DNA of 64,000 bases from contig JARFIW010001670.1 of the NCBI GenBank assembly GCA_036346225.1, positions 5,270,001-5,334,000 on the forward strand, read 5' to 3'. The stretch comes from Platerodrilus igneus (taxonomy: Eukaryota; Arthropoda; Insecta; Coleoptera; Lycidae). A model generated the notes under the pieces. That model saw only the letters and a list, made by a program, of their open reading frames with translations, searched no databases and was not told where the DNA came from. This document shows, piece after piece, positions 1 through 63,363 of the stretch; position 1 is the stretch's first letter; every line of letters starts with the position of its first letter. A program made the translations under genes and the position numbers.

Positions 1-211
1 AATGTTTAGTGTTGCTAAGAAGAAGAACTAGTTTAAGAAGATATTAGTGCTTGTAAATTCATTAGTGTGATAGTGCTTCATTGTTAATTGGACTGAAACC
101 ATCTCTAAATAAGGCATATATTGTTAATTAGACTTGTGAACAGTGAGTAATAAAGACTCTTGTTATTACTTGTTTTAAATCAGTGAACCGCGGTAGTAGT
201 AGCCCGCTACA
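1..211 (+). repeat. 5' LTR, 3' part only (macrodomain gypsy copy 1)
   Basis: This is the R-U5 end of an LTR, cut by the window edge. It aligns with the second half of the solo LTR at 62821-63363 and with the reverse complement of 8133-8340. It contains AATAAA near 150 and ends in GCTACA at 211. A primer-binding-like TGGTGTTAG follows at 213; copy 2 has TGGTATCAG at the same place. Confidence 0.85.
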
Positions 212-286
212 CTGGTGTTAGCCTGTGTGGGGTATATAGTGATTAATTTAAAAGAAAAAACACAAGCCTAAAGATATTTAAGTAGT

Positions 287-1777
287 TTGTATATGCCTGT
301 AACAAGAAGCCAAAGTAAGATGGACGCAGACACTTTAATAATTTTTCTTAAGGATTTTAAATCCGGTATGGAAGAAAAGTTATACGAAAATGCTGCGAAA
401 ATAGATGAAAAGCTTAGTGAAAATGCTGAGAAAATGGAGAAAAGGTCGGCTAAACTGACACTAAATGAAAACGTAGTGTGGTCAGTTGAACTGGAATCAA
501 CCCTTTAAGAAAAGTGAAAATGCTGAGAAAATAGAAAAGTTAAGTGAAATTACAGCCACGTTAAAACAAAGATTAATGGAAAACTCCATTGCATTGAAAG
601 AAGATTTCACTGAACAGGTAAAAACAGTGGAGCAAAAGTTGAACAGTAAATTGACAAAAATGGAAGAAGATGTGATGAGGCTGCAAGAACAAATGATTTT
701 ACTAACAACGCGGCCACTTGAATTAGCAAACCAAGCTGTAAATCAGAGCATTCCAGAAATAAGAAGCATGGAAGGAAGGGAGTCAATACCGTCAAAATTT
801 AAAGTGAAACCACCCACATTCGATGGTAAAACACCTTGGCCCACATATTTAAAACAATTTGAAGCTGCTGCAATAGCCAACGGTTGGTGCAACAAATAGA
901 AGGCTATCTCGTTAGTAGTGGCCCTACGGGGTGAAGCTCTTAACATCTTACAAACGATTCCCGATCACCAGCAGAATAATTACGGCTTCTTAACATCGAA
1001 ATTGAGATGAGATATGGAGACGCTCACCTTCAACAGGTCTACCATGCACAAGTTAAGAACCGCTCGCAAAAAACCAATGAAAACCTGCAAGAATTCGAAG
1101 CTGACATTGCCAGATTAGTTAGATTGGCATACCCAACGGCACCAGAAATACAGCAAGCGCTAAGATTAGCACCGCCAAAAATGTTAGATGACGCACTGGC
1201 TGATGCGCTTGAATTTGAAGCAGCTGAGCAGACATCACACAAGATGAGTCACAAAGTTCGGTCTGCCTTAAAAGAACCTGGCCAATCGCAGAAAAACATA
1301 GAAGAAATAATCAACCGTGTGTTTGAAAAGTAAAAAGCAGAAAAGTTTGAAAGACAACAACCTTATATGTGATTTTCCAGTGCTCCACCCGAAGGTACTA
1401 TATTGGCCAGGAAGCGAGTTTTTTTACCTGGAAAATTTTTTATTTTGCCGAACCCTTGCTGTTCCAGGCAAGGTAGGGATCTTTAACGTGCGTGACAACA
1501 CACGCACACGGGACCTCCATTTTACCTCTCATCCGAACGAGAGTGTACTTTTGTGAAAAATGCTCGCCTAACATTTTTCAAGCGGACCGTGTCGGGATTC
1601 GATCCCGGAACCTTGAGCGTAGTAGTCACACACATACCACTACGCCACGGAGCCGCCGAAAGACAACGACCGTGGAGATGGGGTCTGCGATGCTGGAACT
1701 GCGGTAAAGTTGGTCATATACAGAAACGTTGTACTCAACCAAAAATAAAACAACTGGTTGAGCAGCAGAAAAACTAG
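287..1777 (+). pseudogene. Gypsy gag (copy 1), broken
   Basis: Gag forms the retrotransposon capsid. The first 150 or so residues are Glu/Lys-rich heptads (repeated SENAEKMEK-like stretches), a likely coiled coil. The capsid part starts near 800 (PPTFDGKTPW). A stop at 897-899 and frameshifts break it. About 60 nt present in copy 2 are missing near 1143. A CCHC knuckle (C-x2-C-x4-H-x4-C) lies at about 1690-1735, just after the SINE that splits the gene at 1363-1657. The start at 287 is GTG in the track frame; the true start is uncertain. Confidence 0.85.
1363..1657 (-). mobile_element. tRNA-headed SINE in gag
   Basis: Read on the minus strand it starts with a tRNA-like head ending in a Pol III B box (GGATCGAATCC, plus 1595-1605), then a body ending near the left edge. 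It is flanked by near-identical 14-bp target duplications (gaaagacaac-a/g-acc) at 1349-1362 and 1658-1671. A second copy of the same family lies at 45019-45320. The head is not a functional tRNA: it runs directly into a conserved body. Confidence 0.85.
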
Positions 1778-1854
1778 AGCAAGTCGACGTAAGGGGGCGA
1801 ACGTCGACAGCACTACGTAGTGCCTCGGAGGTTATCATCCGTTCTGCATCGTCG

Positions 1855-2235
1855 ATGGAGAATCTGGACAGTATTTATATTGATGGTAGAATTAATGGTA
1901 GGGTTGTCCGATTACTCGTGGATACAGGAGCGACAAGAACTATTGTGGGACCAGATCTAGTTGGTCGTGGAAAAGTGCTACTTGTATCGGTATGTCTTCG
2001 AACGGCAAGTGGTGAGAAAATTTCTACTCACGGAGAGACTGCCGTAATGTTGGGAATTGAAGACAAACTAATTAATCATCGGGTGTTGGTAGCTCAAATC
2101 ACAGAAGAAGTGATCTTGGGAATGAACATCATGAAAGAATATGAGTTTCATGTGAACATGAAAGAATATGTGCTACGGATAGATGACGATGAGATTCCAT
2201 TTCAAGGGACGAGTAACCAGTCGATGCAAGTTTGA
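1855..2235 (+). pseudogene. Gypsy aspartyl protease (copy 1)
   Basis: This 126-residue open stretch is a retropepsin-like protease that would process the polyprotein. The active-site motif VDTGAT is near residue 23, and a second conserved element, EVILGMNIM, is near residue 86. It lies between the CCHC knuckle and RT, as in other gypsy elements. A stop at 2233-2235 separates it from the next open stretch (2236-2649), which is probably the linker into RT, so the pol frame is broken here. Confidence 0.85.
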
Positions 2236-2593
2236 ATGATTTGTAATATGAAAATACCTGAGAAGGCGGAAATGATAGTAATGGGACGCCCGGATGGTGC
2301 GCTCCGAGAAGGACAAATATGCATGATGGAAGCAACTGAATCGGAAATGGGTCAAGAGGGATTAGTAATTGGAAAAATGATGGTAAAGTTTCGAAATAAG
2401 ATACCAGTAAGGGTGCTAAACATTAATCCGCATACGGTGACCCTGAAGAAAGACATGATTGTGGTAAGTTGCATTCCAGTATGCCATATTAAACGTTGTG
2501 TGGACGGCACGAAAGATAAACCGGCCAACGGTTGCACACAGAAATTGCTGAGTATGTTGATACCTTCGTGTCAAGAATTAAACGGCGACCAAC

Positions 2594-3697
2594 TTGGCCA
2601 AGGTAAAAGAACTGGTCGGACGATATCAAGGTGTGTTTGCACTGGATGATAGTGATAAAGGAAGGACGAATGTTGGGCCACATAAGATCAATACTAGAGA
2701 TGCGCAACCAATAAGACAACACCCCAAGCGGCTTCCTTTGGCAAAACGTAAGAAAGGCAAGCAAATTATCACCGATATGGAAGAACAGGGAGTAATTGAA
2801 CCGTCAAATAGTCCATGGGCATCCCCGGTAGTGCTTGTCAAGAAAAAGGACGGGTCGACAACGTTTTGTGTAGACTACCGGCGACTTAACAAAGTGACAA
2901 AGAAAAACAGCTATCCTTTGCCCAGAATTGATGACACCTTGGATACTCTATCCGGATCTAAATGGTTTTCGACCTTGGACTTGAAAAGCGGATACTGTCA
3001 GGTAGGCTTGGAGCCAAACGATAAAGAGAAAACTGCATTTACAATCGGAACTAGATTATGGCAGTTCAAGGTCATGCCATTTGGATTATGCAATGCCCCT
3101 GCTACTTTTGAACGTTTGATGGAGTCAATACTGCGTGGACTGTCCTGGAAAACATGTCTGGTGTACCTAGACGACGTGATAGTGTTAGGCCGGTCTTTTG
3201 AAGAACACCTTAAGAACCTAGAAGAGATATTCCATGGATTACGCGAGGCAAACCTTACATTGAGCCCCAAGAAGTGCCACCTATTTGGAAAAAAGGTGAA
3301 ATACCTAGGACATGTTGTTTCGGAGACCGGAATAAGAGCTGACCCTGACAAAATAAAAAGGTACAAGTGTGGCTTACATCAGCAGATATACACCAACTAC
3401 GCAGTTTTCTAGGATTGTGCACATATTACCGACGTTTTATACTTGGGTTTGCAAACATTGCCAAACCGTTGACGAAACTAACCGAAAATGGACAAAAATA
3501 TAACTGGAATGACGACTGCCACAGTGCATTTGAACAACTGAAACGGCTACTAGTTACAGCACCAATTTTGAGTTATCCACGGATGGAGGGGAAATATGTG
3601 TTGGATACCGATGCCAGTAACACAGCTATAGGAAGCGTTCTTTCTCAAGTGCAGGACGGACAAAAAAACGTTATTGTGTATTTCAGCAAAATCAAAT
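2594..3697 (+). pseudogene. Gypsy reverse transcriptase and start of RNase H (copy 1)
   Basis: RT motifs are clear: the VDYRRLNKVT block, STLDLKSGY, MPFGLCNAPATF and the catalytic YLDD box (near 3160-3175). A frameshift near 3360-3410 moves the thumb and RNase H start into another frame (3367 onward: FLGLCTYYRRF, then LDTDASNTAIGSVLSQ). The match stops at about 3697, in the middle of RNase H, where copy 2's LTR begins in reverse. The copy cannot make a full pol. Confidence 0.9.
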
Positions 3698-4033
3698 TAG
3701 CAACACTAAACACTACCATAATTTATTTATTACACTTTTGTTTATTTATGTATTCTACAAGCTGCATGTACATTAGACATGTTCACCTCATATAAATTTA
3801 TGTATACTCTCGGACTTCCAAAAGCTCAACTATTTAACTTTACACGATATAATTTATATTCGACATTCTGATATAGACTAGCCCTGTACTTCCTCATCGG
3901 TCTTATTTATACCCTGAATTAAAAAGGATGATTCATCGTCCAGTAATTGCTAGAAAATTCTCGGTCCATGGAGAATATACAGTGCTTATGGCGCTTGTGT
4001 GTTTGACGGGTTGCCTAATAGTAGCTCGCAACA
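3698..4033 (-). repeat. 3' LTR of copy 2, truncated
   Basis: It starts with TGTTGCGAGC at 4033 (minus) and matches the first two thirds of 8133-8670. It stops at about 3698, losing the U5 end, exactly where copy 1 pol stops. Confidence 0.85.
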
Positions 4034-4046
4034 CTGCCCCCTCTTT
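4034..4046 (-). promoter_or_regulatory. Polypurine tract of copy 2
   Basis: On the minus strand AAAGAGGGGGCAG directly precedes the LTR start TGTTGCG. This is the expected place and composition for the plus-strand primer of an LTR retrotransposon. Confidence 0.8.
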
Positions 4047-4100
4047 AAAACCGTTACGTCTCGTAACTGTAAATACATTTTGACGCCAATTCGATGACTG

Positions 4101-4157
4101 ATGACGGTATCGGCAGCTATCTCCTCTGGTGCATGCACCGCGTCGTAGGAAATAACA
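4101..4157 (-). pseudogene. CCCH zinc finger at the 3' end of gypsy pol
   Basis: Nineteen residues have the exact spacing C-x7-C-x5-C-x3-H, with the TRGDSCRYRH style typical of RNA-binding CCCH fingers. The finger is in the same frame as the second half of the macrodomain, about 37 codons after its GCGL motif. Downstream the frame runs through the polypurine tract into the LTR without an earlier stop. An overlapping open frame (about 3986-4222) is in the integrase frame but has no recognisable domain. Function is inferred from spacing only; RNA binding is plausible. Confidence 0.65.
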
Positions 4158-4204
4158 GTCAACAGTCTTTTCTTGGTCTCGGTAGACAATCGGTTGATAA
4201 CAAC

Positions 4205-4600
4205 AAACAGGTACCTGGACATTGGTTCCCTGGAAAACTACTTCTAGCATACTCCAGACTATCCTCCACAGTCCACAGCCTAGCTTGGGCACCGCTAGTT
4301 TCGTTACACCATTTTCCATCATTTGAGCCTTAAGATTTAGCAACGCCTCCCATAGATGTCCATAACTAGGTCTCTGCCCTGAAGAATTTTTGGTGACTAG
4401 ATAGTAAACATAACGATTTTTATCCTGAAAATCAAAGCTTTTCCTACAGTTGGCTGCTGTTGTACTAATTCATCCACACATCCAAACTTTTTCTTGAAAA
4501 CAACAGTTATTTCTCTTGACATTTCCAAATCTTGAGCTACGCAATGTGCAAGGTAATTCTCCTCTGGTGCTCTAAACAGATCTTTCTGTTTTTCAACAAC
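4205..4600 (-). pseudogene. OARD1/TARG1-type macrodomain fused after gypsy integrase
   Basis: Macrodomains of this family hydrolyse ADP-ribose from proteins or from O-acetyl-ADP-ribose. The first half is in the integrase frame (residues about 209-256 of the open stretch from 5218) and shows KDLFRAPEENYLAHC and VFKKKFGCVDEL. A one-base frameshift near 4425-4432 moves the rest to the next frame: YVYYLVTK, NGVTKLAVPKLGCGL and the final beta strand near 4210. The Lys matching the TARG1 catalytic Lys is present (4389-4391). The residue after GCGL, normally the catalytic Asp, is Trp here (4266-4268), so this copy is probably inactive. Assignment rests on colinear motifs along about 130 residues. 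Confidence 0.9.
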
Positions 4601-5965
4601 AACGCCAAATCTTGCCTTAGCGGAACCACCATACGCCACCATAAAACTCTCAAAATCTACATTTGGCTCATGATTAATAATTCGTCGAACACCATTCTCA
4701 TTATTCGAGGCTTCCTGGTTGTTGCCAGCGTAGGATGTTAAACGGTCGAAGTGTACCACTTTCGGTTTACCACGGGGAGATCTTCTGATGCGGTACACTA
4801 CATCACTAATTCCTTTTAACGCTTCGTACGGGCCTTCCCATTGTCTTTGTAATTTTGGCGACAACCCACGCTGTCTTTGTGGATTATACAACCACACTAA
4901 ATCTCCAGGTTGATAACCACCTTCTTGAGCTCTCGTGTCATATTGTGATTTCATTCGATCGCTTGCTTTCTGGATATTCTTTTGGACGTTTTCGTGAATG
5001 CTATTTGATCTTTCACAAAGCTTACTAACGTAATCTTCACCTGCGATCTCTTCTCCAGATTTAAATCCAAACTGAAGATCACATGATAGCCACAATTCAC
5101 GTTCTAACATCACGCAAGCGGGTGAGTATCCTGTGCTATCATGTACTGAGTGAGGACCGGCACGAGAATAGGAACAAATGTAAATATTGATCCCAGTCTC
5201 GTTGATGTTCAGAGACATCTTTGGCTAGGTATTTTCCTAACGTCCTGTTCATTCTTTCAACCATTCCATCCGATTGAGAATGAAGTGGCGTGGTTCTAGT
5301 CTTCCTGATTCCAAGATGCTTGCAGACGTTTTAAAACAACGCTGATTCGAAGTTCCGACCTTGATCGGAGTGTAATTCCAACGGAACTCCAAAGCGACAA
5401 AACAACTCCCTCACTAGTACATCTGCAACCGTCTCGGCTTCTTGGTTAGGTATAGCATATGCCTCCGGCCATTTGATAAAATAATCCATTGCAACCAAGA
5501 TGTATTTATTTCCTTTCTCTGATTCAGGATACGGACCAGCTATATCAATGGCTACCCTTTCAAAAGGATTCCCCACGTTATACTGTCTCACTGGGGCTTT
5601 CCGTTTTGTGACCGGGCCATTTGCAGAGACACACAACTCACATTTCCGGCACCACTCCTTCACATCTTCTTTGCGGTTCACCCAATAGAATCTTTCACTC
5701 TTTCGAGAGGTCTTTTTACGCCAAAGTGCCCTCCGGAAACCCCATCGTGCAAGTGCTGCAACACTTCCGGCACTCTGCTTCTCGGCACTATCACTTGGAG
5801 TCTCTCAGTGCCATCTTCACATTCCAGGCGTCGTTTCAAGATTCTATTTTCAATCACCAAGGATTCCCACTGTGCCCAGTATGCCTTCAGGCTCCTACTT
5901 GAAATACTAATTTCTTCCCAAGCTGGTCGTTGTCCTCTACTTTTCCACTCAATAATACGTCCCAA
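4601..5965 (-). pseudogene. Gypsy integrase and C-terminal region (copy 2)
   Basis: Integrase inserts the cDNA into the genome. From the right: zinc-binding region ending in CRKCELC (about 5640), then catalytic Asp contexts AIDIAGP and HSDQGRNF. The third acidic block, with VERMN, lies near 5240-5260 after frameshifts. The C-terminal part has PGDLVWLYNP and WEGPYEAL, a chromodomain-free GPY/F-like module. An acidic linker of about 50 residues leads straight into the macrodomain in the same frame. Frameshifts near 5330 and 5680 split it into three pieces. Confidence 0.9.
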
Positions 5966-6560
5966 TTCGATGTAATTCTCCTAGTCTTCTCGTATTCTTT
6001 CGGGTTGCCAAGAATCATCGGTTACCGTCATTCATGGATGACACTTATTTTCTCTTCCATCTTGGAGCAATGATTGCAGTCTACCGGACAAGGTCTCTTA
6101 GATAGAGCGTCTGCATTCCGATGGCTAGTTCACTACACGATGTTCTGTGTCAAAGTCATATTCCTGCCGCCGCTCTATCTACCTTGCAATTTACCCTTCA
6201 GGATTTTGAAACTGCAGTAACCATTTTAGTGCAGCATGGTCTGTTCTCAACAGGAATTTACGGCCGTATAAGTACTTATAAAAGTGCTCTACGAATTTGA
6301 TGACGGACAACAGCGCCCTTCTTGTCACACAAAAGTTCCTTTCTGACCGCGACAAGACCTTGCTGAAATACCCAATAACTTTGTCTTGTCCGTCCTAACT
6401 TGAGAAAGAACGCTTCCTATAGCTGTGTTACTGGCATCGGTATCCAACACACATTTCCCCTCCATCCGTGGATAACTCAGAACTGGTGCTGTAGCTAGTA
6501 GCCGTTTCAGTTGTTCAAATGCACTGTGGCAGTCGTCATTTCAATCATATTCTAGTCCAT
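5966..6560 (-). pseudogene. Gypsy RNase H region (copy 2)
   Basis: Read on the minus strand it resumes the pol of copy 1 from the thumb (the SAFEQLKRLLATAP region) through LDTDASNTAIGSVLSQ. It then continues beyond where copy 1 stops, with the FVEHFYKYLYGRKF and RTDHAALKWLL segments. Several stops and indels break it. At about 6560 it is joined to the beginning of protease: roughly 1.6 kb, matching copy 1 about 1894-3476, is deleted. Confidence 0.8.
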
Positions 6561-8054
6561 CTTCGGTTAATTAATTCTACCATCAATATAAATGCTGTCC
6601 AGACTTCCCATAGACGATGCAGCACGGATGATAATCTTCGGGGCACTACGTTGTGCTGTCGACGTTTGCCTCCTTACATTAACCTGCTTTAGCTCAACCG
6701 GTTGTTTCTTTGGTTGAGTACAGCGTGTCTGTATATGACATATAGCATCGCAGACTCCCTCTCCGCGGTCGTCGTCTTTCTAGCCTTTCTGCCTTTTGCT
6801 TTTCAAACACACGGTTGATTATTTCATCTATGCTGTTCTACGCTTGACCAGGTTCTTCTAAGGCAGACCGACCTTTGTGACTCATCCTGTGTGATGTCTG
6901 CTTAGCTGCTTCAAATTCAAGCGCATGAGCCAGTGCGTCATCTAACATTTTTGGCCATGCTAATCTTAGCGCTTGCTGTATTTCGCCATCTTTAACGCCA
7001 TCCACAAATGTTTGAACAGCCAGTTGTTCGAGGAAGCTATCTGGTGCCGTTGGGTATGCCAGTCTAACTAATCTGGCAATGTCAGCTTCGAATTCTTGCA
7101 GACTTTCATTTGTCTTTTGCGAGCGGTTCTTAACTTGTGCATGGTAAACCTGTTGAAGATGAACGTCTCCATATCTCGTTTCAAGTGTCGATGTCAAGAG
7201 GCCGTAATCATTCTGCTGGTGATCGGGAATCGTTTGCAAGATGTTAAGGGCTTCCCACCGTAGGGTCACTATTAGAGAGATAGCCTTCTCTTTGTTGCAC
7301 CAACCGTTGGCTATTGCAGCAGCTTCAAATTGTTTCAAATATGTGGGCCAAGGTGTTTTACCATCGAATGTGGGTGGTTTCACTTTAAATTTCGACGGTA
7401 TTTACTCGCTTTCTACCATGCTTCTTATTTCTGGATTGTTCTGACTTACAACTTGGTTTACTAATTCAAGTGGCCGCATTGTTAGTGAAATCACTTGCTC
7501 TTGTAGCCTCATCGCATCTTCTTACAAATTTACCAATTTACTGTCCAACTTTTGCTCCACTGTTTTTACCTGTTCAGTGAAATCTTCTTTCAATGCAATG
7601 GAGCTTTCCATTAATCTTTGTTCTAACGTGGCTGTACTTTCATTCAACTTTTCTTCCATTTTGGCAGCATTTCACTAAACCTTTACATTTTCTCAGTATT
7701 TTTCACTAAACTTTTCTTCTATTTTCGTAGCATTTTCACTTAATTTTCTTCTATTTTCTCAGCATTTGCACTAAGCGTCACTTCCATACCGTATTTAAAC
7801 TCTTTAAGGGTCGATTCCAGTTCAACTGACCTCACTACGTTTTCATTTAGTGTCACTTACAGTTTAGCCGACCTCTCCTCCATTTTCTCAGCATTTTCAC
7901 TAAGCTTTTCATTTATTTTCGCAGCATTTTCACTTAACTTCTCTTGCATTTTTGCAGTATTTTCGCTTAAGTTTTCTTCCATATCGGATTTAAAATCCTT
8001 AAGGAAATTCATTAAAGTTTCTGTGTCCATCTTACTTGTTACAGGCATATACAA
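6561..8054 (-). pseudogene. Gypsy gag, knuckle and protease start (copy 2)
   Basis: The capsid part at 6838-7383 is intact for 181 residues (PPTFDGKTPW to EEPGQA). It includes a stretch missing from copy 1 (DSFLEQLAVQTFVDGVKDGE). The N-terminal coiled coil (7857-8054 and the broken stretch to 7500) is again Glu/Lys-rich heptads. The knuckle region (6700-6790) is damaged, and the first residues of protease are at 6570-6610. Unlike copy 1 there is no SINE in it, so the SINE inserted only into copy 1. Confidence 0.85.
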
Positions 8055-8111
8055 ACTACTTAAATATCTTTAGATTTGTGTTTTTTTTTCTTTTAAATTA
8101 ATCATTATATA

Positions 8112-8132
8112 CCCCACACAAACTGATACCAG
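8112..8132 (-). promoter_or_regulatory. Primer-binding site of copy 2
   Basis: Immediately inside the 5' LTR the minus strand reads C-TGGTATCAG, with the TGG expected for pairing with a tRNA 3' CCA end. I cannot name the tRNA with confidence. Confidence 0.6.
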
Positions 8133-8670
8133 TGTAGCGGGCTACTACTACTGCATTTCACTAATTTAAAACAAGTCGTAACAAAAGTCTTTATTACTCA
8201 CTGTTCGCAAGTCTAATTAACAAATGCCTTATTTATAGGTGTTTTCAGTCCAATTAACAATGAAGCACTATCACACTAATGAATTTACAAGCACTAATAT
8301 CTTCTTAAACTAGTTCCTTAACTATAAGTCTTCTTAGCAACACTAAACACTACTATAATTTATTTATTACACTTTTGTTTATTTATGTATTCTACAAGCT
8401 GCATGTACATTAGGCACGTTCACCTCATATAAATTTATGTTTACTCTCGGACTTCCAAAAGCTCAACTATTTAACTATACACGATATAATTTATATTCGA
8501 CATTCTAAATAGACTAAACTCTGTACTTCCTCATCGGTCTTATTTATACTTTGAATTAAAAAGGATAATTCATCCTCCAGTAATTGCTAGAAGATTCTCG
8601 GTTCATGGAGAATATACAGTGCTTGTGGCGCTTGTGTGTTTGACGGGTTGCCTAATAGTAACTCGCAACA
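8133..8670 (-). repeat. 5' LTR of copy 2, complete (538 bp)
   Basis: It starts TGTTGCGAG at 8670 and ends GCTACA at 8133, in the TG...CA form. It has a TATA-like TATAAATAAG and AATAAA upstream of its end. It matches the solo LTR at 62821-63363 end to end. The 98 bases to its right (8671-8768) contain nothing I recognise. Confidence 0.9.
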
Positions 8671-10622
8671 ATATCCTTGCTTATTATTTTATAATAAGAA
8701 GCTAAAAGCTCCATATTTTACTAAATATTACATAAAACAATTGTATGTATAACAATCGATATGAAATATGTAACGATAAAACGCACTGGTTAGGCAGAAA
8801 CAGAAAGGACGGAAAAGTAACACCCCACACGAATTGCCATAACGTATAAAAAGATAAAAGTAACAGAGATGCCGATGCTAACTACAAATGCAGAAAGTAG
8901 GGTGGCTCACATACACAAAGAAAGGACATATCATCAAACTTTTATTTGCAATCAGTCAAAAATTTCTATTTAAATAAACAAAAAATATATAATCTACAGA
9001 CAATTTTTAATAATTGAGATACGAAGTGCGCATTTCGTATTGTAACATAAAAAAGGAAGGATAATGAACATAAAAGGCAATACGTATGGTCTCTTTTAAC
9101 CAAACATTTTCAGTTTCTCACAGAACACTTACTGCGATTTTAATAGTAATTTATCTCACTCCGCCCGTCACAGTAAGATGATTCACGTTTCTTCTTGTTG
9201 CATGAGTTTACGCATTATGACATAAGGAGAAAGAAAATAAGGTAAGATACATGTACGTACTGTTTACTTATCTTGCACCTACATCAGCGGAGATGAACAA
9301 GCAAAACGTCGTGATTTTGCTTTATCTTGCACCTACATCGGCGGAGGTGAACCAGCAAAACATTGCGATCTCGCTCTCTGAGGGATAGTTACCACGGTAG
9401 TCATAATCAATAAGGCTGCGGCCATAACCGCAACAGCGGGCCTACGTGAAAGAGCTAGAAAGAGATTCTATCTAGTACCACTAACAACGTAGAAACTTAC
9501 CGATGCCCCGAAGGCAGAAGCTTCCCGTGGAAGACGTGCATGGCTCTTGAAGTAATAGAATCAGCCATGCAGAAAGTACATGCTAGGACGAATAACAGGT
9601 TGCTACGCACCTAAACGTAGCCGGGAGAAACGTAAATAGCAGGCTAACTACCAAACGCGGAGAGTGGGGGTTTCACCTACATACAAAAAACAAAAAAAAG
9701 CATTTCGTTCTCGCTTATCTATTAACAATCAAAATATACCGTTTGTAAAATAAACTAATCAGTAGAAAAGAATAAGCGTGTGGGAACTTTTGTCAAACAT
9801 TTTTAACAATGGTACATCACACCTGTAGAGCAATAATATCGATTCGCAGCAACAAACAATAGTCCAACAGTATCACGTTTCTTAACACGTAACTACATCA
9901 AACGCCAATAAGGAATATTCCCTTGATATACACAAAAAAAAACAAGTTGTATACCTGTATGTGTCGGGATGCTTAGCTTGCACGCCATCGGGAGTAAATC
10001 AGCACAGTATCGCCACGGTCGTCGGGATCTATTTACCCTGTTACCATAACGGCACTAGCGATCTACAGGCAACGGCAGTTGATCTGTGGCAAACAACAGT
10101 TGGGTCTACATAAAAAAGAACCACTTTGGCCTCCAGCTAAGAGCTAAAAAGAGAATCTGATTAGGACGAGTAAGTGCGGAAAAAATCACCGATACACGCA
10201 AGATACCTCCTATTTGTCGAACAAAAAACGTGCATCGCTCTTGAAGTACTGGGACGACAAATGTAGACAATATTTCAAAGTACAAGCTGCAGAATCAAAT
10301 TAAAAATTGGTTCAAATAATACGAGTTCGAACTACAATCCTTGCGTTATCATAACGCGATTAGCAAACTGGAAAACACGCTATCAAATAATAGTAGGATC
10401 CATTATTTTGACAAATCTTTAGATGGGAAACACAAGATAAAGCAATTACACGTTATCGGAATGTTTAACAAATTAACGAATACCTAAAACAAGGTATTGA
10501 CTATTTAATTTATCGAATAAATTTTCGTTTTAAAAGCAAAATAGATTTCAGTTAAAACAAGTTGAAAATGCAAGGCATTGTCGCAACGAACTTCCAAATG
10601 TAGACTTACTTTAAAACAATTT

Positions 10623-22005: not shown

Positions 22006-25000
22006 CTGAAATTTAAAAAAAAAATAGAATTCACCATCAAATATTTTAAATGTGTTTACTCACATTCATCGATATTTTGTAGATCATACACTAAGAAGTT
22101 GTTGTCTCTATTATCCCCACCAGCAGTTATTACAAATGATAAATCAGGACATAACTCAAGACAGTGTACAGCTCCTATGTTAAAATTGTTTTCATGTACT
22201 ACAACTGGCTGTTCTTTATCAGCAACGTCCCATATCTTAATTAAACCATCTGAAGATGCTGTTAAAAATAAACCTGCACATTTTTCACTTACACTAAATC
22301 CAGTTACTTCTTTTTCATGTGCTTTAACTGACCACATCATACCCTGTCTACAATCAAAATATTGTACATCACCTATGCTTGTCGCTGCAAAAAATGCAAA
22401 CGGATCAAGTGGATTCCAAGCAATTCTCTCAGCTTCTCCAGATATTTCCCAATTTTGATATGTATCTATGTTACGACAATCAAAAACTTTTACAGTTTTG
22501 TCACATCCTCCTGCTAATAGTGTTTGAGGTTCAAGTTTGTGCCAGTCTAAGCACTGCACTTTATCTGTAAAAGCATTAATCGATGAGGCAGGTTCACCTT
22601 GATCTAAATCCCATAATAGAATACTTTTATCTACAGAAGCACTTGCTAGTATGTGGTCAAAATTTTTATTCCATGCTAGATCTAGAACAGCATCTGTGTG
22701 TCCCATCTGTTGTAAGCCTCTTTTACGACTACCTTTTCGACCTAATTTGAAAGCTGGTTCTAAACAATTTACAATATCTAGATCCCACACTTCAATAATT
22801 GGGTTTAGAGAACCAATAGCACAATAATTTCCAGGTGGATGTCCAACCTCGTGATCTAACCATTCGATACATAAAGGAAAAGCAGGCAGTAGAAAATCGT
22901 GATGAACATACAGAGATTCTTCATTTTCGTTGTACACTAATAACAAAAAAAGGTTGTTATTTTTAAATCTTTTGCTAAATAAATAAACATTTATGTACAG
23001 CCAAGCTACACATATTTGTACTCGTTTAAAATATGAAAATGCAAAAACACGGTACATTCATGATTAAGGTTTTTCTATTAACATGGAAATGCTATAGACA
23101 ATTTTCATGGTTTGGTGTGTCATGTAAGTAGAAACCTCTTGCATCATAGATTCAAATCTGGTTGCAATCAAATACATACATATTATTCTTTCCATTATTT
23201 GTAACCACAAGTGCAAAACTAACTTTATATTTCTTGTAAATCTCAAAAACGCAAATAACATTGTTTGCTGTAATAAAGTATATTGAGGGGTTATTAAAAC
23301 CAGGTCTAATATAGATACAAGTTGTAACCATTAAACACCAGTATTGGTAAACAAGTTCACACACAGGCAGCTCCAAGCACAGGTGGACTGGGCAGCCGTG
23401 TGAGGTCCCATGCTAGTGTGGGCACAGTGCCAAGGGAAAATTTATGGAAAATTAATGTTCAAAGAAAGAGTCCCAAACCACAAAAAAGAACTAAAATGTA
23501 TACACAATAGTTTAATGATTAAACAAAGTTTTTATTTAAAAACTAACAACATAAGAAATACGGAGCTAGACAAGGTTTTTAAAGGAAACGAAATACATTG
23601 TATAAAAGACTATAATATAATACTTACACAATGCTCTGGACTCGAACACAAAACTTTCTTAGAACCAATTTAAATAAACTTGTGTTGTTTGTCTTGCAGT
23701 CTTTAAATTAAAGAAAGTTAACGGCTTACGTAAACATGTATGATGCACCTCTAATCTTTTAATGAAAAATCTGTTTGACTTTAAATTGTAGTCCTCTATT
23801 CATAAAATAACGTAATAGACATTTACCTAACCAGTTATGAAAAGACTAATTTTATTTGACAAATGTAATATTTGCATTGCTAGAGTTTGTTTATGTCCAC
23901 TGCCAATCTGCCACTAGCACTGCTGCAACTACGCCCCACTCCACAAAAACATTCCTCTGTGGTAGAATCATTTCTAGGCGACAGTTACTCATCATAACGC
24001 ACTGAATCGGTGCCAGTCAAAATGTAGAGTCATTTATTGTGCAGTGTGCAATTTGAATCTCGATTTCTTTGTGATGTTTATTTCTTGCTTTGTTGTAACT
24101 ACTGTAAACTGTTTTTTGATTGATAATACTATGATTAGTTATATTTAATTAGACAGTTGTAACAGGTTAAAATACACGGGTCAGACAGAAACAGAAACGA
24201 AAGAAATAAGGGCCCATACAAATCATGGTCACGTATAAAAGATAAAGCAAATTTAGAAAGACCGGGGTAACTACAAATGCGAAGAGTGGGATAGTTCACA
24301 TATACAAGAAAAGTACATAGCCATCGATTGTTTATATTTACAATAAAAATTTTAATTTTTATTACCTTGAATATAAATTAAAAACAACATTGAAAACACA
24401 AACAAATAATAATGTGGATCCAAATGTTAAAAATGAAAATGTTACTAGTGGGAAATCAAAAAGCTTTGCAGATGCCCTAAAAACCAATGATAATGTTTTG
24501 TTAATCAAGCCAAAAAAAGACCAAAATTCAAACAAGACCAGAAATGAAATTAAAGAAAAGATTAGTGTTAGTGAATTAGGGGTGACTATTGCAGGAATTA
24601 GAGGCACAAATAAGGGTGGACTTGCTATCAGTTGCTCATCCAAAGAAGATTTAATCAAGCTGAAAACAGAAACCAAAAATAAATTACATGGTGAATATTT
24701 AATCAAAACACTGAGTAAACAAAAACCATGTGTAAAAATTGTTGGTATTTTAGAAGAGATTGCACCTGATTCTCTAATAAATGCTATTATCAAACAAAAC
24801 AGATGTATTAGTGACAATGCTGAAATCAAAGTGATTAATATAAAAGGATGGTAAATAACAATAGTAAATGGACTGCAATTATACAGGTGGATATTGACAC
24901 ATATAATAGCATACTAGATAATGGTGCTCTTTGCATTGAATTTTCAGCTTGTGCGGTTTATGAACATATTAATATTAAAAGATGCTTTAATTGTTATGGG

Positions 25001-28000
25001 TATAACCACTATGCAAACGTTTGTCAAAAACAACCAGTTTGTTCTAAATGTGGATATGAAAATCACCCAGGGGAAGTGTGTAAGAATTTGGAAACACAAT
25101 GTCCGAACTGCAAAGAAATGAATACCAAATATTCATTAATGCTCAACATTAACCATTCACCCTTTGATAAAACCTGTCACACATGGTGCAAGCAATTGCA
25201 GATAGCTCGTTCCAAAATTGACTATGGTAAACAAGTTTAGCAATCACAGCATAAACAACAGTGTTTCGGTATCCGGGATAAGCAATATATACATATCAAA
25301 AATCAAAATGTTAAAACCTTATCAGTATGTCACTTAAATATACGTTCGTGGGTATCGTGCTTTTCGCATTTTACAGACTTTGTGAATAATGAGAAGTTTG
25401 ATATCATAGCATTATCAGAAACTTGGCTCACAAAGGATATACCGTCTGAACTAATCATGTTACCAGGTTATGCGTTAACAAGATTAGACAGGCCAAGTAG
25501 GGGAGGCGGAGTATGTTTTTACGTAAGGACATGGATCAATTGGAAGAATGTTGATATAAGTTATATAACAGGAGCTGAACTAGAACAGCGCTGGATTACA
25601 TTTAAAATTAAATCTCAGTCATATATAATGGGTGTCATATACAGATGTCCCACAAAATCGATAACATGCCTGAAAGAATTGGAGAGCGTATTATGTGATT
25701 ATAGCATTAAATACGATAACACAATATTAATGGGTGATATTAATATCGATATGCTCCAAACTACCAGAGCTAGTAATTATTTAAATCAGATATTAGAATG
25801 TTTCAACTTAACAAGATCTAATATAGAACCTACAAGAGTAACAGAACATTCAGAAACACTACTCGACATTGTATGTGTTAGCAACAACATCAGTATCCAA
25901 AAGTGTGGTACACTGGATATGAATATCATGTCAGATCATCGTCTTATATATGAAATTATAAAAACAGATACATATCAAGTCTCTGTGAAATATAATACAG
26001 CAAGAAATTTTAAGTATTTTGATTTGGAATTATTTAACAATGATGCTAAATTGTTAAATTGGGAGCAAATTCTAAATATGCAAAATATTGATGACAAAGT
26101 GAGTTGTCTTAATAATATGATAAGGGAATTATTTGATTTACATGCACTCATGCAACGATTTAGAACTAGTAGTCTGAATAAACCTTACATAACTGCAACT
26201 ATAAAAAATATGATAAAGCTGCGTGACAAAGCATATGCTCGTTATCGCAGAACTAAATTAGCAAGTCATTTTGGGTATTATAAAGATTTACGTAATATTA
26301 CTAATACTGCAATTAAAGCAGAGAAAGCTGCATACTTTAAGTTTGAAATTAATAAACATAGAGGCAACAAGAAAAGATTGTGGGACTTCTTTAGGAAAAG
26401 ACAAATATATCATAAACCAGAAAATACAATCCAAGAAAATTTGAACGACCCCAATCACCTAAACAGATTCTTTGTTAAGGCTGCAGAAAATTTGGCCTCA
26501 AGTATAGAAACAGATAAAAATAATAAATTAGATTATCCAGTGTTTAAGCAACAATTTAAATTTGATATGCAAAAAATTACACATGATGCAGTATACAAAA
26601 TTATTTTTGGTATGAAATCAGAAGCAATTGGTGTGAATGGTATTGGCATAAAAATGCTAAAATATATAATACCTTTCTGTATAGATGTGCTGGTTAATAT
26701 TTTAAGATGCTCATTAAATGAAGGAACCTATCCTAAGATATGGAAGTACTCAATAGTCACGCCTATTGCAAAAGTATCTAATGCTACAGAATTGTCTCAT
26801 CTAAGGCCAATCAATATTTTAAGCACAATGTCAAAAATAGCAGAAAAAATAGTTTATGATCAGTATAGTGAGTATATCAATACATATATTTTGCCATCAG
26901 CACAGTCTGGATTCCGAAAGGGGCACAGTACGATAACAGCGCTATGTAAGATTGTTAATGACATTACGAGAGCTATGAATGAAGCCAAGGTTACTCTATT
27001 GGTAATGTTAGACTATAGCAAAGCATTCGAACTAGTAAATATACAACTTTTGCTTCGTAAATTAGAATTATATGGTTGCAGTAAGACAGTTTTATTATGG
27101 TTTAAAAACTATCTCAGTGAAAGGTATCAGCAAGTAAAGCTCAACAATAGATTCTCAGAATTTTTACCACTAAAGCAAGGAGTGCCACAGGGAAGTGTTT
27201 TAGCACCGATTATATTTTCCCTATTTACTGCAGATCTACCAGAGGTGATAAAGGTATGTTCAGTGCACATGTATGGCGATGATGTGCAAGTGTATGTATC
27301 ATGTATGCCAGAAGAAATTAACAAAACTATTCAATATTTAAATATGGATTTGGAACAAATATCTAAATCGTCAAAAGAAAATGGTTTACTCTTAAATCCT
27401 ACAAAAACGGTCGCTATGTGCTTGGGAAATAAATTGGCTTGTAGGAAAGTTCACGACAATATAAATGAGGTTATCACAATCGATAATGTAGAAGTTACTT
27501 TTTCATCGAGTACAAAAAATCTTGGTCTTATTATAGATACCAATTTAAATTTTGAAAAGCATGCAGTAACAAAGATTAAGTCAGGCTATGCAATTTTAAA
27601 GCGACTATATAGTTATAAAAACTTGATTCTTTCACATGCAAAAATGGAATTATGCAATACTTTAATAATTAGTCAGCTTGATTATTGTAGTTGTGTCTAT
27701 TTTAATTATCTAACTAACGAATTAAAAAATAAGTTGCAGGTATTACAAAATAGTTGCATACGATTTATTTTTAATTATAGAAAATTTGATCATGCAACAC
27801 CTATTTATAAAGAACATCAAATTTTAAAATTTCAAGGTAGGTGTGAATTGTTGTTTGCGGTGCTACTGTATGGAATTATTATTACAAAAAAACCAAATTA
27901 CTCGTATGAACTACTAAAGAAGCGAAGTGACATACATAATCTAAACTTAAGGTCAGTAGACATGATTAATGTACCTAGGCATCAAGTAGCCAAATTTAAA

Positions 28001-31000
28001 GCTTCATTTGAACATACGGCAGCTAAGTTTATAAATCAAAATATAAATCTGTATAAAAGTTGTAAAAATCAATGTACATTTAAGAAAGATATGAAAAAAA
28101 TTTTGTTAAATAAGTATTATAAAAAATAATCTAAGTAAGTGTACTAAATTATAGTCAGGAGTGGTTGAAAATCAGCCTTGCTGAACCATGTCCTTTTGGA
28201 TATATGTATTTGTATATATTCAATAAATCAAATTTATTATTATTATTATTATTAAAAAAAAGCAATTATACTCTACAGACAATTTTTAATAATTGATCTA
28301 CGAAGGATGCATTTCGTAGCGTAACCTATAAAAAGGATTGGTAACGAACAAAAAAGTAAAGCTTGCGATTTCTTTTGGACAAACATTTTAATATAAACAA
28401 AGTACATTTAAAACAATTTCTAATATCAATTTCAAGTATCAAGAAACACTAATGAAGCTAGTTTCTAACAGGTTTTGAGGTTCAGGTTACACATCAACAT
28501 CAAAGTATTTTCTGGTGATAGTAAATGCATTACGAACGAGCTGTCAGCCTAGATTTGCAGCTTTGAAGTTCTATGAATACAAATTTGGCTTTATGTACCC
28601 TATTAAAGGTCTTCGGGCGTGATGACCTGATGAATAATTGTAAGGACCTACAACTTTCATTGAGCAACAGAGATAAGCATGATATCAACTCTGTGGAATT
28701 GTATGAGCAGCTAAAAATGTTGGTCCTTGTCTACTATGGAAATCAACACAATGTATTTTCACTTCTTAAGTATATGCACAGAACAGCTTGAAAGCTGTTA
28801 ATGTCGTATTAAGAGTAATATGTACAATTCCTGTCATAGTAGCGGCTGCTGAAAGAAACCTCCAAGTTAAAGCTTATCAAAACCTACCACCATGGCACAA
28901 AATCGGCCATCATCTGTAGCCCTTCTCTCCATAGAAAACGAGATAGCAACCAGTCACTATTTTAGTGAAGTGATTGAAGACTTCAACTGAAAAAAAGACG
29001 CAGAGTTACCTTTTAATGAAGTACATTAATAAGCACAATATATTGTGTTGAGTGATAAATAGGTATAAGGTGTTCTAATCTCATATTTTTAAATTTTTAG
29101 TTGGATATTTGCCATCCAAAATAATTTCACTCCTGATGTAAAATCTCTTTCTTATTAACTTCACTAAGTTTATTTATTTATTTAGCATACATCTGCTCAG
29201 ACAGAAAATCCAATAATAGAGCAGGAATCAAGCTTGATACATAGAAAATAATAAAATATAACAAATTACATAACTAAAATTTAAATTAACTAAGACTTAT
29301 TTAAAATCACTTTCTTAATAGTAGCCACAGTTGAACAATAAATGTCAAATTTGGTCAAGTACAAATTATAGTTATTGTACATCTTGAATATGGGCGAGAA
29401 TTGGAAGGAGTTAGTTTTTACAGCTCGTAGGTAGAATGGAAAGTTGCCTCGAGACTGAAATTGTGGCACCTTGAATTGTATATAATTAAGGATCTCAGGG
29501 CAATCAATACCACCATAAAGAAGCTTAAATAAAAAGAGCATGAAAAAATACTTGTGCGTCAACTCAAGATCATGTATGCCGAATCTTACCTGTAAGTGTA
29601 ACAGTGGAATTCCTTGAATAGGGTACACACTGTCACATTTCAAGCACAAAAATTTAAGGAATCTCCATTATACACTTTCAATTTTTAGCTTATGAAGTTG
29701 GTAATTCAGACTTCACACCGTCATTGTATATTCAAGTTTTGGTCGAACAAAAGCAAAATACAGAGTTTTCAACAAATGCACATCATAAAAATTAGCAGAG
29801 TTACGCACAATAAATTCAAGGGTTTTATAAGCTTGAGCTATCATGACATTGATATGGTTAACAAAATTCTGGATCAAATGCAACTCCTAAGTCAAGATAT
29901 GTATTAGATTTTTTCTAATATAACATTACTTATAGAATAGTTGAAAACTGTTGGTTTCGTCCTTCTTGTAAAAGACATAAAGACGCATTTATCAGTCTTC
30001 AACTTCAGTAAGTTATAAATACAATAATTGTTAATCTTGTTCAGGTGTTTAGTGTCATGCAATCTTCGAGGCTATCGATACTTTTTAACAATTTGAGGTC
30101 ATCGGCATATATTAATAGAATAGAATTAATGTTTTAATTGATGTTGTTAATAAAAAAGTTGAAAAGCAGTGGCCCCAAAACGAAGCCTTGAGGCACCCCT
30201 GAAGTAACAGCTATATTACTAAATATATATCCCTTGTATGTAACGGTTGACACTCTATTGGACAAATAGGACTGTAGAAACCAAATAAACCTTAATATAA
30301 GGCCAAGCTCATAAAATTTTACTAATAGTTCCCATGATCAAGTCGATCAAAAGTCTTACATTGTTCCATGTAAATTACATCCACCTGGCCTCTGTCATCT
30401 AAGCTTTCAGAAATATATTGCCTTGTACATATGAGATTAATAACTGTCGACCGTCCTAGAGTAAATCAATGTTGGCATGGTGTTAACTGTGATTTTTGTG
30501 CTGAATGTCAAATAATTAAAGAGTAAAGATTTAAAGACCTTGTTGAAGTTGCATAAAATTGCAATAAGTCTATAGTTACCTATGTCTGATCGATCTTTTG
30601 TCTTGAAAACTGGACAGATCTTAGAATGTCTCCAAATTATAGGGTAGACTGAAGTTTTAAGCGACAGATTGAACAAGTAAGTTAAAGGTCTAGTTAGGAG
30701 GTAGGCAGAATCATGCAGCAAAAAAGCAGGAGTACCATCTGGACCGGTAGTAATTTTTTGTTTAAAATTTCCAGGTACTCGCAAAATGTCATCTTCAAAA
30801 AATGTGGGGGGTTTATGGTTGGCACCCCTGTAAAGTTATTCCAATCACCTTCCCTGAATGTTGTTGAGGAAATAAATGCTGATTGAAAATAGTGGGCGAA
30901 AGCATCCACAATGGCCTATGGATCAGTTAAATGAGTATTATCATATTTCATGTTGCCAGGACTACCACTAATGTTTTTCGTACCATTGATGTAAGACCAA

Positions 31001-43000: not shown

Positions 43001-46000
43001 TTAATTTAACTAAGAAAAACTGCGATTTCTCAATACGTAAGGTTTCTAATTTATTCATGAAGAGTTTCGCTAAGAAAGGTGAAAGATTCAAGCTCATGGT
43101 AAGACCACTATTTTGTTTGTAGAAATTATTGTTGAACTTGAAGAAATTTTGTTTGATAGCGAGATTTATTAACAACGGTATTATGGTGTGAAATTGAGAA
43201 ACAGTGAGATTAGAGCATTCCATTAAACCATTAATAGTTGAATGCATTCCGAAGGAGGTATGCTGGGAAACAAATTTACAATGAAACAATGTTAAACGAT
43301 CCTGGAAGTTGAAGACTGTATTTTAGAAATGAGAGATGAGGAATTTTTAATAGGGTATTTTGGTTTTAAAATAAAATGTCCAGTAAAAAATTCTTTCAAA
43401 ATTTTGCTAATTTATTACAAGGGGTATGGGTGTATGAAATGAGAGGCCTAACTGGAACGTTCGCTTTACAGATTTTAGGTAATCCATATACACGAGGTGT
43501 GGTAGGATTCATTTCCAAAATATTTTTATAATTTAAATTGAAGTTAGTAAGAATATTACAAGAATCATAAATTAATTTCCTAATATTACTGATACAATGA
43601 GAAGTGTAACCTTTTTGAAGTGCAGTACAATTTGAAGAATGTATAAAATCACTGACTTTGCTAACTTAAGCTGACATCTAAAATAACTTTATAACTACCT
43701 TTGTCTGCCTTAGTACAACTCCATTGAGTGACATTTCTTCTTTTTCATTATGGACATTCGTTGAAGTCAGCCTACAGGTTCGATATAGAATTTAATAAAA
43801 TAGATAGTACTTTGGAAGCAGTGATAGATTCAGGTAGTCATGTTTCGATGATTAAAGAAAAATTGATTCCAGAATGTCTTGTCCAATCAGGTAAACAAAA
43901 TAATTGTTCTGTAGGAACTAATAATTCTATTGTAAATGACAAGAAGTTACTTTTAGATAAGGTTATTGTCAACAACAAAAGCTACGATCAATGTTTTTAT
44001 GTGGTAGATTAAAGCACTATGTTTAGTGATAGCTTATTAAAGTAAGATTTTTTGTAATTCGAAAATTGAACAAACTGTTTTCAAATGATGATGTACAGGT
44101 TATGCATAAAGTTTTACATCTGAATTTTTAATGAATGATGTTCTTTTAACTAATGATTTATCGTCCAAATGTTTACATAAATAAAAGGTTGAATCTTTAT
44201 TTGATCGCTAATGTTAATGATATTTTAAAAACTTATTATTTTTGAACTAGTAGACATTTAGTACCAAAAACAGCTTAGCATGCAGGTAAATTTAAGAAAA
44301 AATGAACCATTTTGGCCAAGGAGGAAGTGTTTTGTTGGAAAAATGTGTTGGCAGGTATTGTTACCTGCCAACACATTTTCCAACAAAACACTTCCTCCTT
44401 GGCCAAAAATGGTTCATTTTTTAAATTTACCTGCATGCTAAGTTGTTTTGGTACTAAATGTCTACTAGTTCAAAAATAATAAGTTTTAAAATATCATTAA
44501 CATTAGCGATCAAAAGATTCAACCTTTATTATGTAAACCAAGATCTTCTAGAACAAGGTATTTTTCACGAAAGTGATTCTGCCTATTGTTCACCTGTAGT
44601 TATGGTACGACAGAAAAATAATGAGTTTAAATATGTGTTGAATATCGTACATTAAATAAGCAGAAAATTCGAGATCAGTACCCAATTCTGTTCATTGATG
44701 ATCATTTGAACCAACTGAAACATACGAGGTGAATAGTATCTTTGAGGTTGTAGCAATAGAATATAGCAATTTTACATACCTTGAGATACTGATGACCATA
44801 AATTTTGCTGGTACAACGAATTGATATTATAACGAATTAATAGTGGACTGTATTTAATAATGTAGTCGTGCTTCCTCTGCAAGACGATACGAAGTATCCA
44901 ATGAACAAAAAGTTAATTATTACTCACAACGTTTGCACCGTTATGGCCATAACACTCGTGTAACCAAAACCCTTTATTGCAATCACTACACAATAAATAA
45001 TCTTTTGCATAACAAACCGTTCATTTACATTTTCAAATGCTCCACCCGAAGGTACTACATTGGCAAGGAGGCGAGTTTTTTGTTGCCTGGAAATTTAGAA
45101 TTTTGCCGAACCCTTGCCGTACCAGGCAAGGTAGGGATCTTTAAAGTGCGTGACAACACTCACACACGGGACCTCCATTTAACCTCTCATCCGAACGAGG
45201 GCGTAATATTTGTAAAAAATGCTCACCTGCCATTTTTCAAGCAGTCGGCCGTGTCGGGATTTGAACCCGGGACCTTGGGATCCGTAGTCTTACGCTTACT
45301 ACATTGATCCACGGCGACGCCTTTGCATAACGAACCATAAAAAAAGCACGAAAACACACCGAATTGTATGTTGCTCCAAGTAAGGTTCACAACAACATCT
45401 TAACGATTCGAACTGGTCACGCATAAACTTCGTGAAGAAGGGATGTTATATTCACGATGCATATTTCTAATGTCTAAATTAATAGGATAAAAACCGGGTC
45501 TTCAAATTAAATTTAATAAAGAAATATTAAGACCGAACACGAGGTATTTTACAAAACTTTTTATTATGTTTCTAGCGGTAATGATTCAGTAAAGTATACT
45601 TCTTTTGTTACACATAGGGGGCAATTTGAATTTTTGAAAGCACCTTTTGGTTTGGGTACGAGTCCAAACAGTTTATGCAGATTCATAAATAAGGTTATTA
45701 AAAATTTAACGCAACAAATAAGGGTTCTCATATTTTTTAATGATATTCTTATCGCTACAGAAACAGAAGAAGAGAATCTTGGAATTTTAGTAGAAGTTTA
45801 AATTCTTTTGATTGATGACTTACTTGAATTGCGTTTAGCTAAATGTTACTTTTATATGAAGAGGTTGCTTATTTAGGTTGGTTACTGTATTAGTAAGGTA
45901 GGTATTAATTAAATTGAAAAGTAGAAAACTCTAAACCAAACCCATAAAATAATCGTATATTTTTTATTTATTCGACGGCTATAGTTTCGAATACCAATAC

Positions 46001-62820: not shown

Positions 62821-63363
62821 TGTTGCGATCCACTATTAGGCAATCCGTCAAACATACAAACGCCCGGGGCACAAAGTATTCTTCAGGATTCGAGAATTCT
62901 TCTAGAAATTACTAGATAATGAGTCATGTCTTTAATTTAGGGTATATATAAGGCCGCTTATGTATGTAAGAGTTAGTCCACATAAGAATGTCGTATATAA
63001 ACTATATCGTGTATAGTGAATGTAGTTGAGATTTTTGGAAGCCGAATAGTATATATACATAAATGTTATATGAGCTAAACGTGTCTAATGTACATGCAGC
63101 TTGTAGTATACATAAATAGATAGAAATTGGATTGAATAATAGTTGTGTTAGTGTTGTTAATGGACCTATGGTAAAGAAGTTAGTTTAAGAAGATATTAGT
63201 GCTTGTAAATTCATTAGTGTAATAGTGCTTCATTGTTAAGTGTCCTGAAAACATCTATAAATAAGGCTTACACTGTTAATTGGACTTGTGAACAGTGAGT
63301 AATAAAGACCTTTATTATTACTTGTTTTGAATTAAAGAAACGCGGTAGCAGTAGCCCGCTTCA
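62821..63363 (+). mobile_element. Solo LTR of the macrodomain gypsy family (543 bp)
   Basis: Starts TGTTGCGATC and ends CGCTTCA, matching 8133-8670 over its length. It is flanked by ATAC on both sides (62817-62820 and 63364-63367), a 4-bp target duplication. TATATATAAGG is at 62942-62952 and AATAAA at 63301-63306. No internal sequence, so it arose by LTR-LTR recombination. Confidence 0.92.

Follow-up and report, generated by a model that had tools for sequence, protein, structure and literature searches.

A TARG1-type macrodomain downstream of integrase in the Pol polyprotein of a Ty3/gypsy-type retrotransposon family of Platerodrilus igneus and other insects

The 64,000-nucleotide stretch of the Platerodrilus igneus genome analyzed here (the window) contains, on its minus strand, a degraded copy of a Ty3/gypsy-type retrotransposon family whose Pol polyprotein carries a macrodomain of the OARD1/TARG1 type. 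The full Pol order in this family is protease, reverse transcriptase (RT), RNase H, integrase, TARG1-type macrodomain and CCCH zinc finger, running into the polypurine tract and the 3' long terminal repeat (LTR). The family is characterized by this architecture, by its conservation within the genome and between insects, by a TARG1 fold with the catalytic Lys and Asp, and by purifying selection on the domain. From this evidence we consider it fairly likely that the Pol-borne macrodomain is an active ADP-ribosyl hydrolase, removing ADP-ribose made by host PARPs.

The original prediction had placed an OARD1/TARG1-type macrodomain after the integrase of a Ty3/gypsy element in the window, and both the domain and its association with the element were borne out. 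The macro fold runs from 4606 to 4206 on the minus strand, with the integrase core and p58 C-terminal domains directly upstream, and each half of it matches human OARD1/TARG1 structures (E = 1.5e-10 for 2eee and 3.9e-15 for 4j5r). The profile match is less clear-cut: the structures are recovered, but Pfam Macro taken alone is weak, detecting the second half only at 15.7 bits against a cut-off of 22. The integrase frame had been described as continuing without a gap into the macrodomain, which is correct for the first half (frame 5224 to 4397), whereas the second half, with the YYLVTK and PKLGCGL motifs, lies in a separate frame (4469 to 3933) and the break falls near 4418-4442. The proposed replacement of the Asp after GCGL by Trp is in fact a deletion of four residues including the catalytic Asp (GCGL----WRIV, compared with GCGLDRLDWRIV in another copy). 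A conserved Gly is also changed to Glu (SREIT vs. SRGIA), and a working enzyme from the window copy is very unlikely. A CCCH zinc finger just downstream of the macrodomain, absent from the earlier account, scores 24.3 bits with Pfam zf-CCCH (cut-off 20.5), its closest solved structure being CPSF4 (E = 6.4e-8).

A macrodomain-CCCH query against the genome assembly (2.71 Gb) gave 14,009 first-look candidates, of which 150 were scored; all of these cover 195 or 196 of the 196 residues at 93-100% identity. Copies were also sampled independently of the domain. Among 20 copies chosen by RT (every third of rows 2 to 59 among the 150 scored), 19 have integrase, macrodomain and CCCH finger downstream of RT, and the sole exception (L058) has neither the macrodomain nor an integrase match. 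Twelve further copies were chosen by the integrase C-terminal domain (p58_C), hand-picked from 150 rows to span both profile groups; the macrodomain is present in 11, two of which end inside it. Thus the expected adjacency of macrodomain and integrase holds in other copies. The catalytic Lys is found in 26 and the Asp in 25 of 30 copies chosen by RT or by the integrase C-terminus. Six of the 150 RT matches scored lie in open frames of at least 1400 codons, and therefore long intact frames exist. The exact polypurine pattern occurs in 8 of 47 loci (L004-L050), and in seven of these eight Pol remains in frame from the macrodomain through the tract (KEGAVLR) into the LTR. The MacroD-type loop NAAN...GGGGVDGAIH is absent from the element copies compared, and the family alignment shows DLF, LAHC and MSRGIA instead. 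Chance similarity or an artefact is excluded by the OARD1/TARG1 structure matches, the 150 scored genomic matches and the 19 of 20 RT-chosen copies.

Selection was estimated from 30 copies chosen by RT or integrase C-terminus and not by the macrodomain, after removal of codons close to the ends of alignments or within regions of poor match. Two copies were left out: L058, which lacks integrase and macrodomain matches, and L082, excluded beforehand, where the integrase end is followed by unrelated sequence. Variants shared by at least two copies were assumed to be mostly older than insertion, and singletons to represent mostly decay after it. For the macrodomain, the per-site ratio of nonsynonymous to synonymous changes (N/S) was 0.29 for shared variants (95% interval 0.17-0.48) compared to 0.70 for singletons (Fisher p = 0.01). 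The corresponding shared and singleton ratios were 0.18 (0.09-0.32) and 0.39 for the integrase core (p = 0.051), 0.12 (0.02-0.28) and 0.41 for the integrase C-terminus (p = 0.035), 0.46 (0.13-2.27) and 0.87 for the linker (p = 0.45), and 0.18 (0.00-0.76) and 0.75 for the CCCH finger (p = 0.17). Taken across all samples, including those discussed further below, the ratios indicate that the macrodomain was under purifying selection, perhaps weaker than that on integrase.

The domain also occurs in other insects, with integrase and macrodomain in one chain. The first protein search returned 14 proteins, eight of them with integrase domains and macrodomain in a single chain, and two later searches added more (29 of the 41 rows of one search are from Molorchus). 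The element group includes proteins from Harmonia, Callosobruchus, Molorchus, Aromia, Brassicogethes, Gonioctena, Acanthoscelides, Pyrocoelia, Aquatica, Diabrotica and Macrosteles, plus an Erysiphe pulchra record. Lineages were looked up for six sources, five belonging to Coleoptera and one to Hemiptera; the remaining named insect sources are beetles. Proteins P0135, P0155 and P0156 (1372-1379 residues) show the order protease, RT, RNase H, integrase and p58_C, followed by macrodomain and CCCH finger. Some records consist of the macrodomain alone, with or without the finger, and leafhopper record P0033 contains no integrase domain, while its sister P0027 has the p58 C-terminus. Assignment to Ty3/gypsy is based on Pfam models and domain order, LTRs and the polypurine tract. 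No env or chromodomain model matched P0135, P0155, P0156 or P0142 at E up to 0.01; env-like open reading frames (ORFs) elsewhere were not sought. Pfam Macro gives no match at E up to 0.01 in three of the four long Pol proteins and is below cut-off in the fourth, so the domain is easily overlooked. Several Molorchus Pol-macrodomain proteins (P0139-P0143, P0145, P0151, P0163, P0164) bear the UniRef name 'Cleavage and polyadenylation specifi...', apparently derived from the CCCH finger.

In the family alignment the catalytic Lys is conserved in 30 and the Asp in 29 of 31 rows, a pair corresponding to Lys84 and Asp125 in human TARG1 numbering. A careful tree of 64 rows, derived from an 85-row set by dropping 27 names and adding six, groups 27 element macrodomains in a single clade (98/96) that excludes the cellular TARG1-type proteins. 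Median identity between families is 0.78 for the integrase core, 0.64 for the integrase C-terminus, 0.34 for the linker, 0.58 for the macrodomain and 0.55 for the zinc finger, and integrase and macrodomain distances are correlated (r = 0.67, 0 of 5000 permutations, 13 proteins). The single element clade and the correlated distances would fit one capture followed by shared descent. In protein P0070 (295 aa) a TARG1-type macrodomain comes immediately after RNase H, with no integrase between them, possibly a second, separate capture; the protein groups with beetle host-like proteins in a quick tree (91) and adjoins the element clade, weakly, in the careful tree (73/48). The Erysiphe pulchra record (P0002) is a beetle-type element with macrodomain on a 5.4-kb contig of the fungal assembly, with gag next in the same frame, and is likely contamination. 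TARG1-like macrodomains are also common in IMG/VR contigs (as long as 394 kb), where a single scan gave 136 stretches; neither integrase nor RT was found in the fetched flanks of the 80 that were kept (L083-L162).

The host genome itself has PARP catalytic exons (eight matches) and MacroD-like exons (L001 and L002, with the NAAN...GGGGVDGAIH loop seen in L001). It also has a TARG1-type gene, L164, which shares 66% identity with Zophobas P0009 (105 residues) and 44% with the element domain (108 residues); some 150 bases separate its two domains, which are in different frames, suggesting an intervening intron. A diverged paralogue, L163 (contig C861), has a 577-codon open frame in which the LAHC and GCGL motifs are changed, yet a Lys and an Asp still align. 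Among named records of the first protein search, P0009-type genes were from beetles only. Recent capture from the host's own TARG1-type gene is disfavoured: median identity of the element domain to elements of other insects (17 proteins) is 0.56, above the value for L164, although the alignments differ. With a dipteran OARD1 protein (P0040) as query, 150 matches were obtained at 46-53% identity; these are presumed to be element copies, and a further host OARD1 gene could hide among them.

Between its LTRs, the minus-strand gypsy-type element of the window has retained gag sequence, a remnant of RNase H, an integrase with a broken frame, the macrodomain and the CCCH finger; protease and RT are almost entirely gone. 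Its two LTRs differ by a Kimura two-parameter distance of 0.0496 (336 sites). The features are as follows.

8334-8670, minus strand: 5' LTR, direct repeat with 3697-4033
6700-8037, minus strand: gag region, disrupted, limits approximate (ORF 6838-7401; inverted repeats I1, I2, I4 and I7 with the plus-strand piece)
6037-6570, minus strand: RNase H remnant (tblastn), at the junction of inverted repeats I3 and I6
4705-6031, minus strand: integrase (H2C2, rve core, p58 C-terminal domain), frame-broken (Pfam, tblastn)
4206-4606, minus strand: TARG1/OARD1-type macrodomain (tblastn mapping, PDB matches)
4101-4160, minus strand: CCCH (C-x7-C-x5-C-x3-H) zinc finger (Pfam zf-CCCH, CPSF4 match, mapping)
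4034-4046, minus strand: polypurine tract adjoining the 3' LTR (sequence)
3697-4033, minus strand: 3' LTR, direct repeat with 8334-8670
25-3696, plus strand: another, partial copy of this family in inverted orientation, comprising leader, gag, protease, RT and some of RNase H

The plus-strand copy ends at the edge of the 3' LTR and lacks integrase and macrodomain. Of the Ty3/gypsy traits, protease and RT are thus present in the window only in this inverted partial copy, and LTRs with a polypurine tract are present as well. At 62821-63160 (minus strand) there is a further LTR-like piece, the third in the window, with 78% identity to the element LTR. The gag of the plus-strand copy is interrupted at 1370-1660 by an insertion resembling a short interspersed element, one end of which reads as a tRNA-like CCGTGGCGTAGTGG stretch on the minus strand; ARAGORN reported no tRNA in window positions 1-9000. 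By eye, its translation is similar to one at 44861-45307. Elsewhere, ORFs of a long interspersed element, Jockey-like by eye, occupy 24321-28129 on the plus strand (a zinc-knuckle ORF, then a 962-residue endonuclease-RT frame), and a 333-residue WD-repeat frame at 22056-23057 on the minus strand, PWP1-like by eye, is likely a host gene exon.

As a working model, the macrodomain would act as an ADP-ribosyl hydrolase that travels with integrase, either fused to it or released by the element protease. Its substrates may be DNA ends, or Glu/Asp residues of proteins from the element or the host, that host PARPs have modified with ADP-ribose in the presence of element RNA and DNA and upon nicking of DNA during integration. 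A repressive or repair mark would in this way be kept off the sites of integration or the particles of the element, and the zinc finger, probably RNA-binding, may help to position the enzyme. Removal of ADP-ribose near element particles or integration sites is favoured because the catalytic pair, and not the fold alone, is conserved, and because loss of fly PARP-1 mostly raises mobile-element expression, as described in an excerpt of PMC7712786. As in the original prediction, an action against host PARP control is inferred. It is possible, if on balance doubtful, that insect LTR retrotransposons have long carried an integrase-linked TARG1-type hydrolase as a counter-defence against PARP marks on proteins or DNA; such carriage would date from before the split of the sampled beetle families, unless elements moved between hosts.

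Other roles for the domain have to be weighed against hydrolysis of host marks. Chromodomains of gypsy elements sit at the C-terminus of integrase, the position that the macrodomain occupies here, and its fold retains the pocket; it might therefore read ADP-ribose rather than erase it, so that the integrase complex is tethered to nicked DNA or to chromatin carrying ADP-ribose and the integration site is chosen in this way, with hydrolysis incidental. Reading could dispense with the catalytic pair, yet both residues are kept in nearly all alignment rows, and we regard a reader role in site choice as unlikely, and less likely than that of an eraser. DNA-linked ADP-ribose as the target is a serious alternative. 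In its more specific form, the domain would strip ADP-ribose from complementary DNA ends or bases, in the manner of DNA de-ADP-ribosylation by TARG1/DarG-type enzymes, so that the ends stay integrable; protein-linked substrates are equally possible, and protection of element DNA as such seems rather improbable.

Several observations weigh against an active hydrolase serving the element. The macrodomain forms one open block under a strict test in only 6 of the 30 domain-independent copies, and breaks recur at the same codons (near 508, 550 and 606-614) in several copies, although not compared base by base. From this recurrence it seems that the domain was already broken in some sublineages when they spread, perhaps with help in trans; in several of the copies concerned integrase is broken too. 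Selection on the macrodomain is no stronger than on integrase core or C-terminus, and other samples gave less favourable shared N/S ratios: 0.38-0.40 in the 19 RT-chosen copies uncleaned, 0.45 in 17 domain-chosen copies, and 0.38-0.44 when these 17 were pooled with 28 copies selected for similarity to one domain (45 in all). The 28 alone gave 0.16-0.17, biased low, and estimates from copies chosen by the macrodomain itself are biased in general. One protein (P0008) has Arg and Glu at the positions of the catalytic pair. The macrodomain is the more constant part, since no CCCH finger was found in P0016, P0022, P0027 or P0033. Finally, the authors of PMC7712786, in the same excerpt, allow that the PARP-1 effect on retrotransposons may be indirect. 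The broken copies and recurrent break points would also suit a host gene piece caught by chance in one master element and carried along without function. Such a passenger is, however, highly improbable given that the domain keeps the same place within one clade of insect elements, retains its active site at the between-family identity given above, is depleted in shared amino-acid changes and is nearer to other insects' elements than to L164.

The closest macro fold to the element domain is that of human TARG1/OARD1/C6orf130 (PDB 4j5r, 4j5s, 2eee). The element domain differs in being part of a Pol polyprotein, in most cases with a CCCH finger after it, in its extra C-terminal sequence, and in a loop that reads MSRGIA in element rows compared to MGAGIA in human TARG1. 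Insect cellular TARG1-type genes (Zophobas P0009, dipteran OARD1, L164) share the macrodomain type and active site but lie outside Pol; P0009 and L164 bear an additional domain at the C-terminus. In the tree, which was built without L164, neither P0009 nor the dipteran proteins belong to the element clade. Some gypsy elements have a chromodomain or env between integrase and the 3' LTR; the present elements likewise have an extra domain after integrase, in this case a TARG1 domain and zinc finger. Retroelements with captured host enzymes and mobile genomes with macrodomains are both known already. Macrodomains of RNA viruses (alphavirus nsP3, rubella p150), also a macro fold in a mobile genome, counter host ADP-ribosylation according to an excerpt of PMC7729036. 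The original prediction knew of no description of this domain order, and none for a macrodomain in Ty3/gypsy Pol appeared among the matches listed in open-licence literature. A macrodomain in a retroelement nevertheless has precedent in a different element: a review (PMC4977317), citing Basta et al. 2009, states that macro domains are encoded now and then in epsilon-like endogenous retroviruses of ray-finned fish, as additional ORFs.

The finding may account for the odd names of insect Pol fragments, such as OARD1-like, 'Macro domain-containing' and the polyadenylation factor name mentioned above. A gypsy lineage that retained a TARG1-type active site while spreading in several insect families suggests that ADP-ribose signalling may meet retrotransposons too, and raises the question of whether insect PARPs restrict retroelements and whether the mark is on protein or DNA. 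If the counter-defence proposal is true, insects would restrict retrotransposition by ADP-ribosylation.
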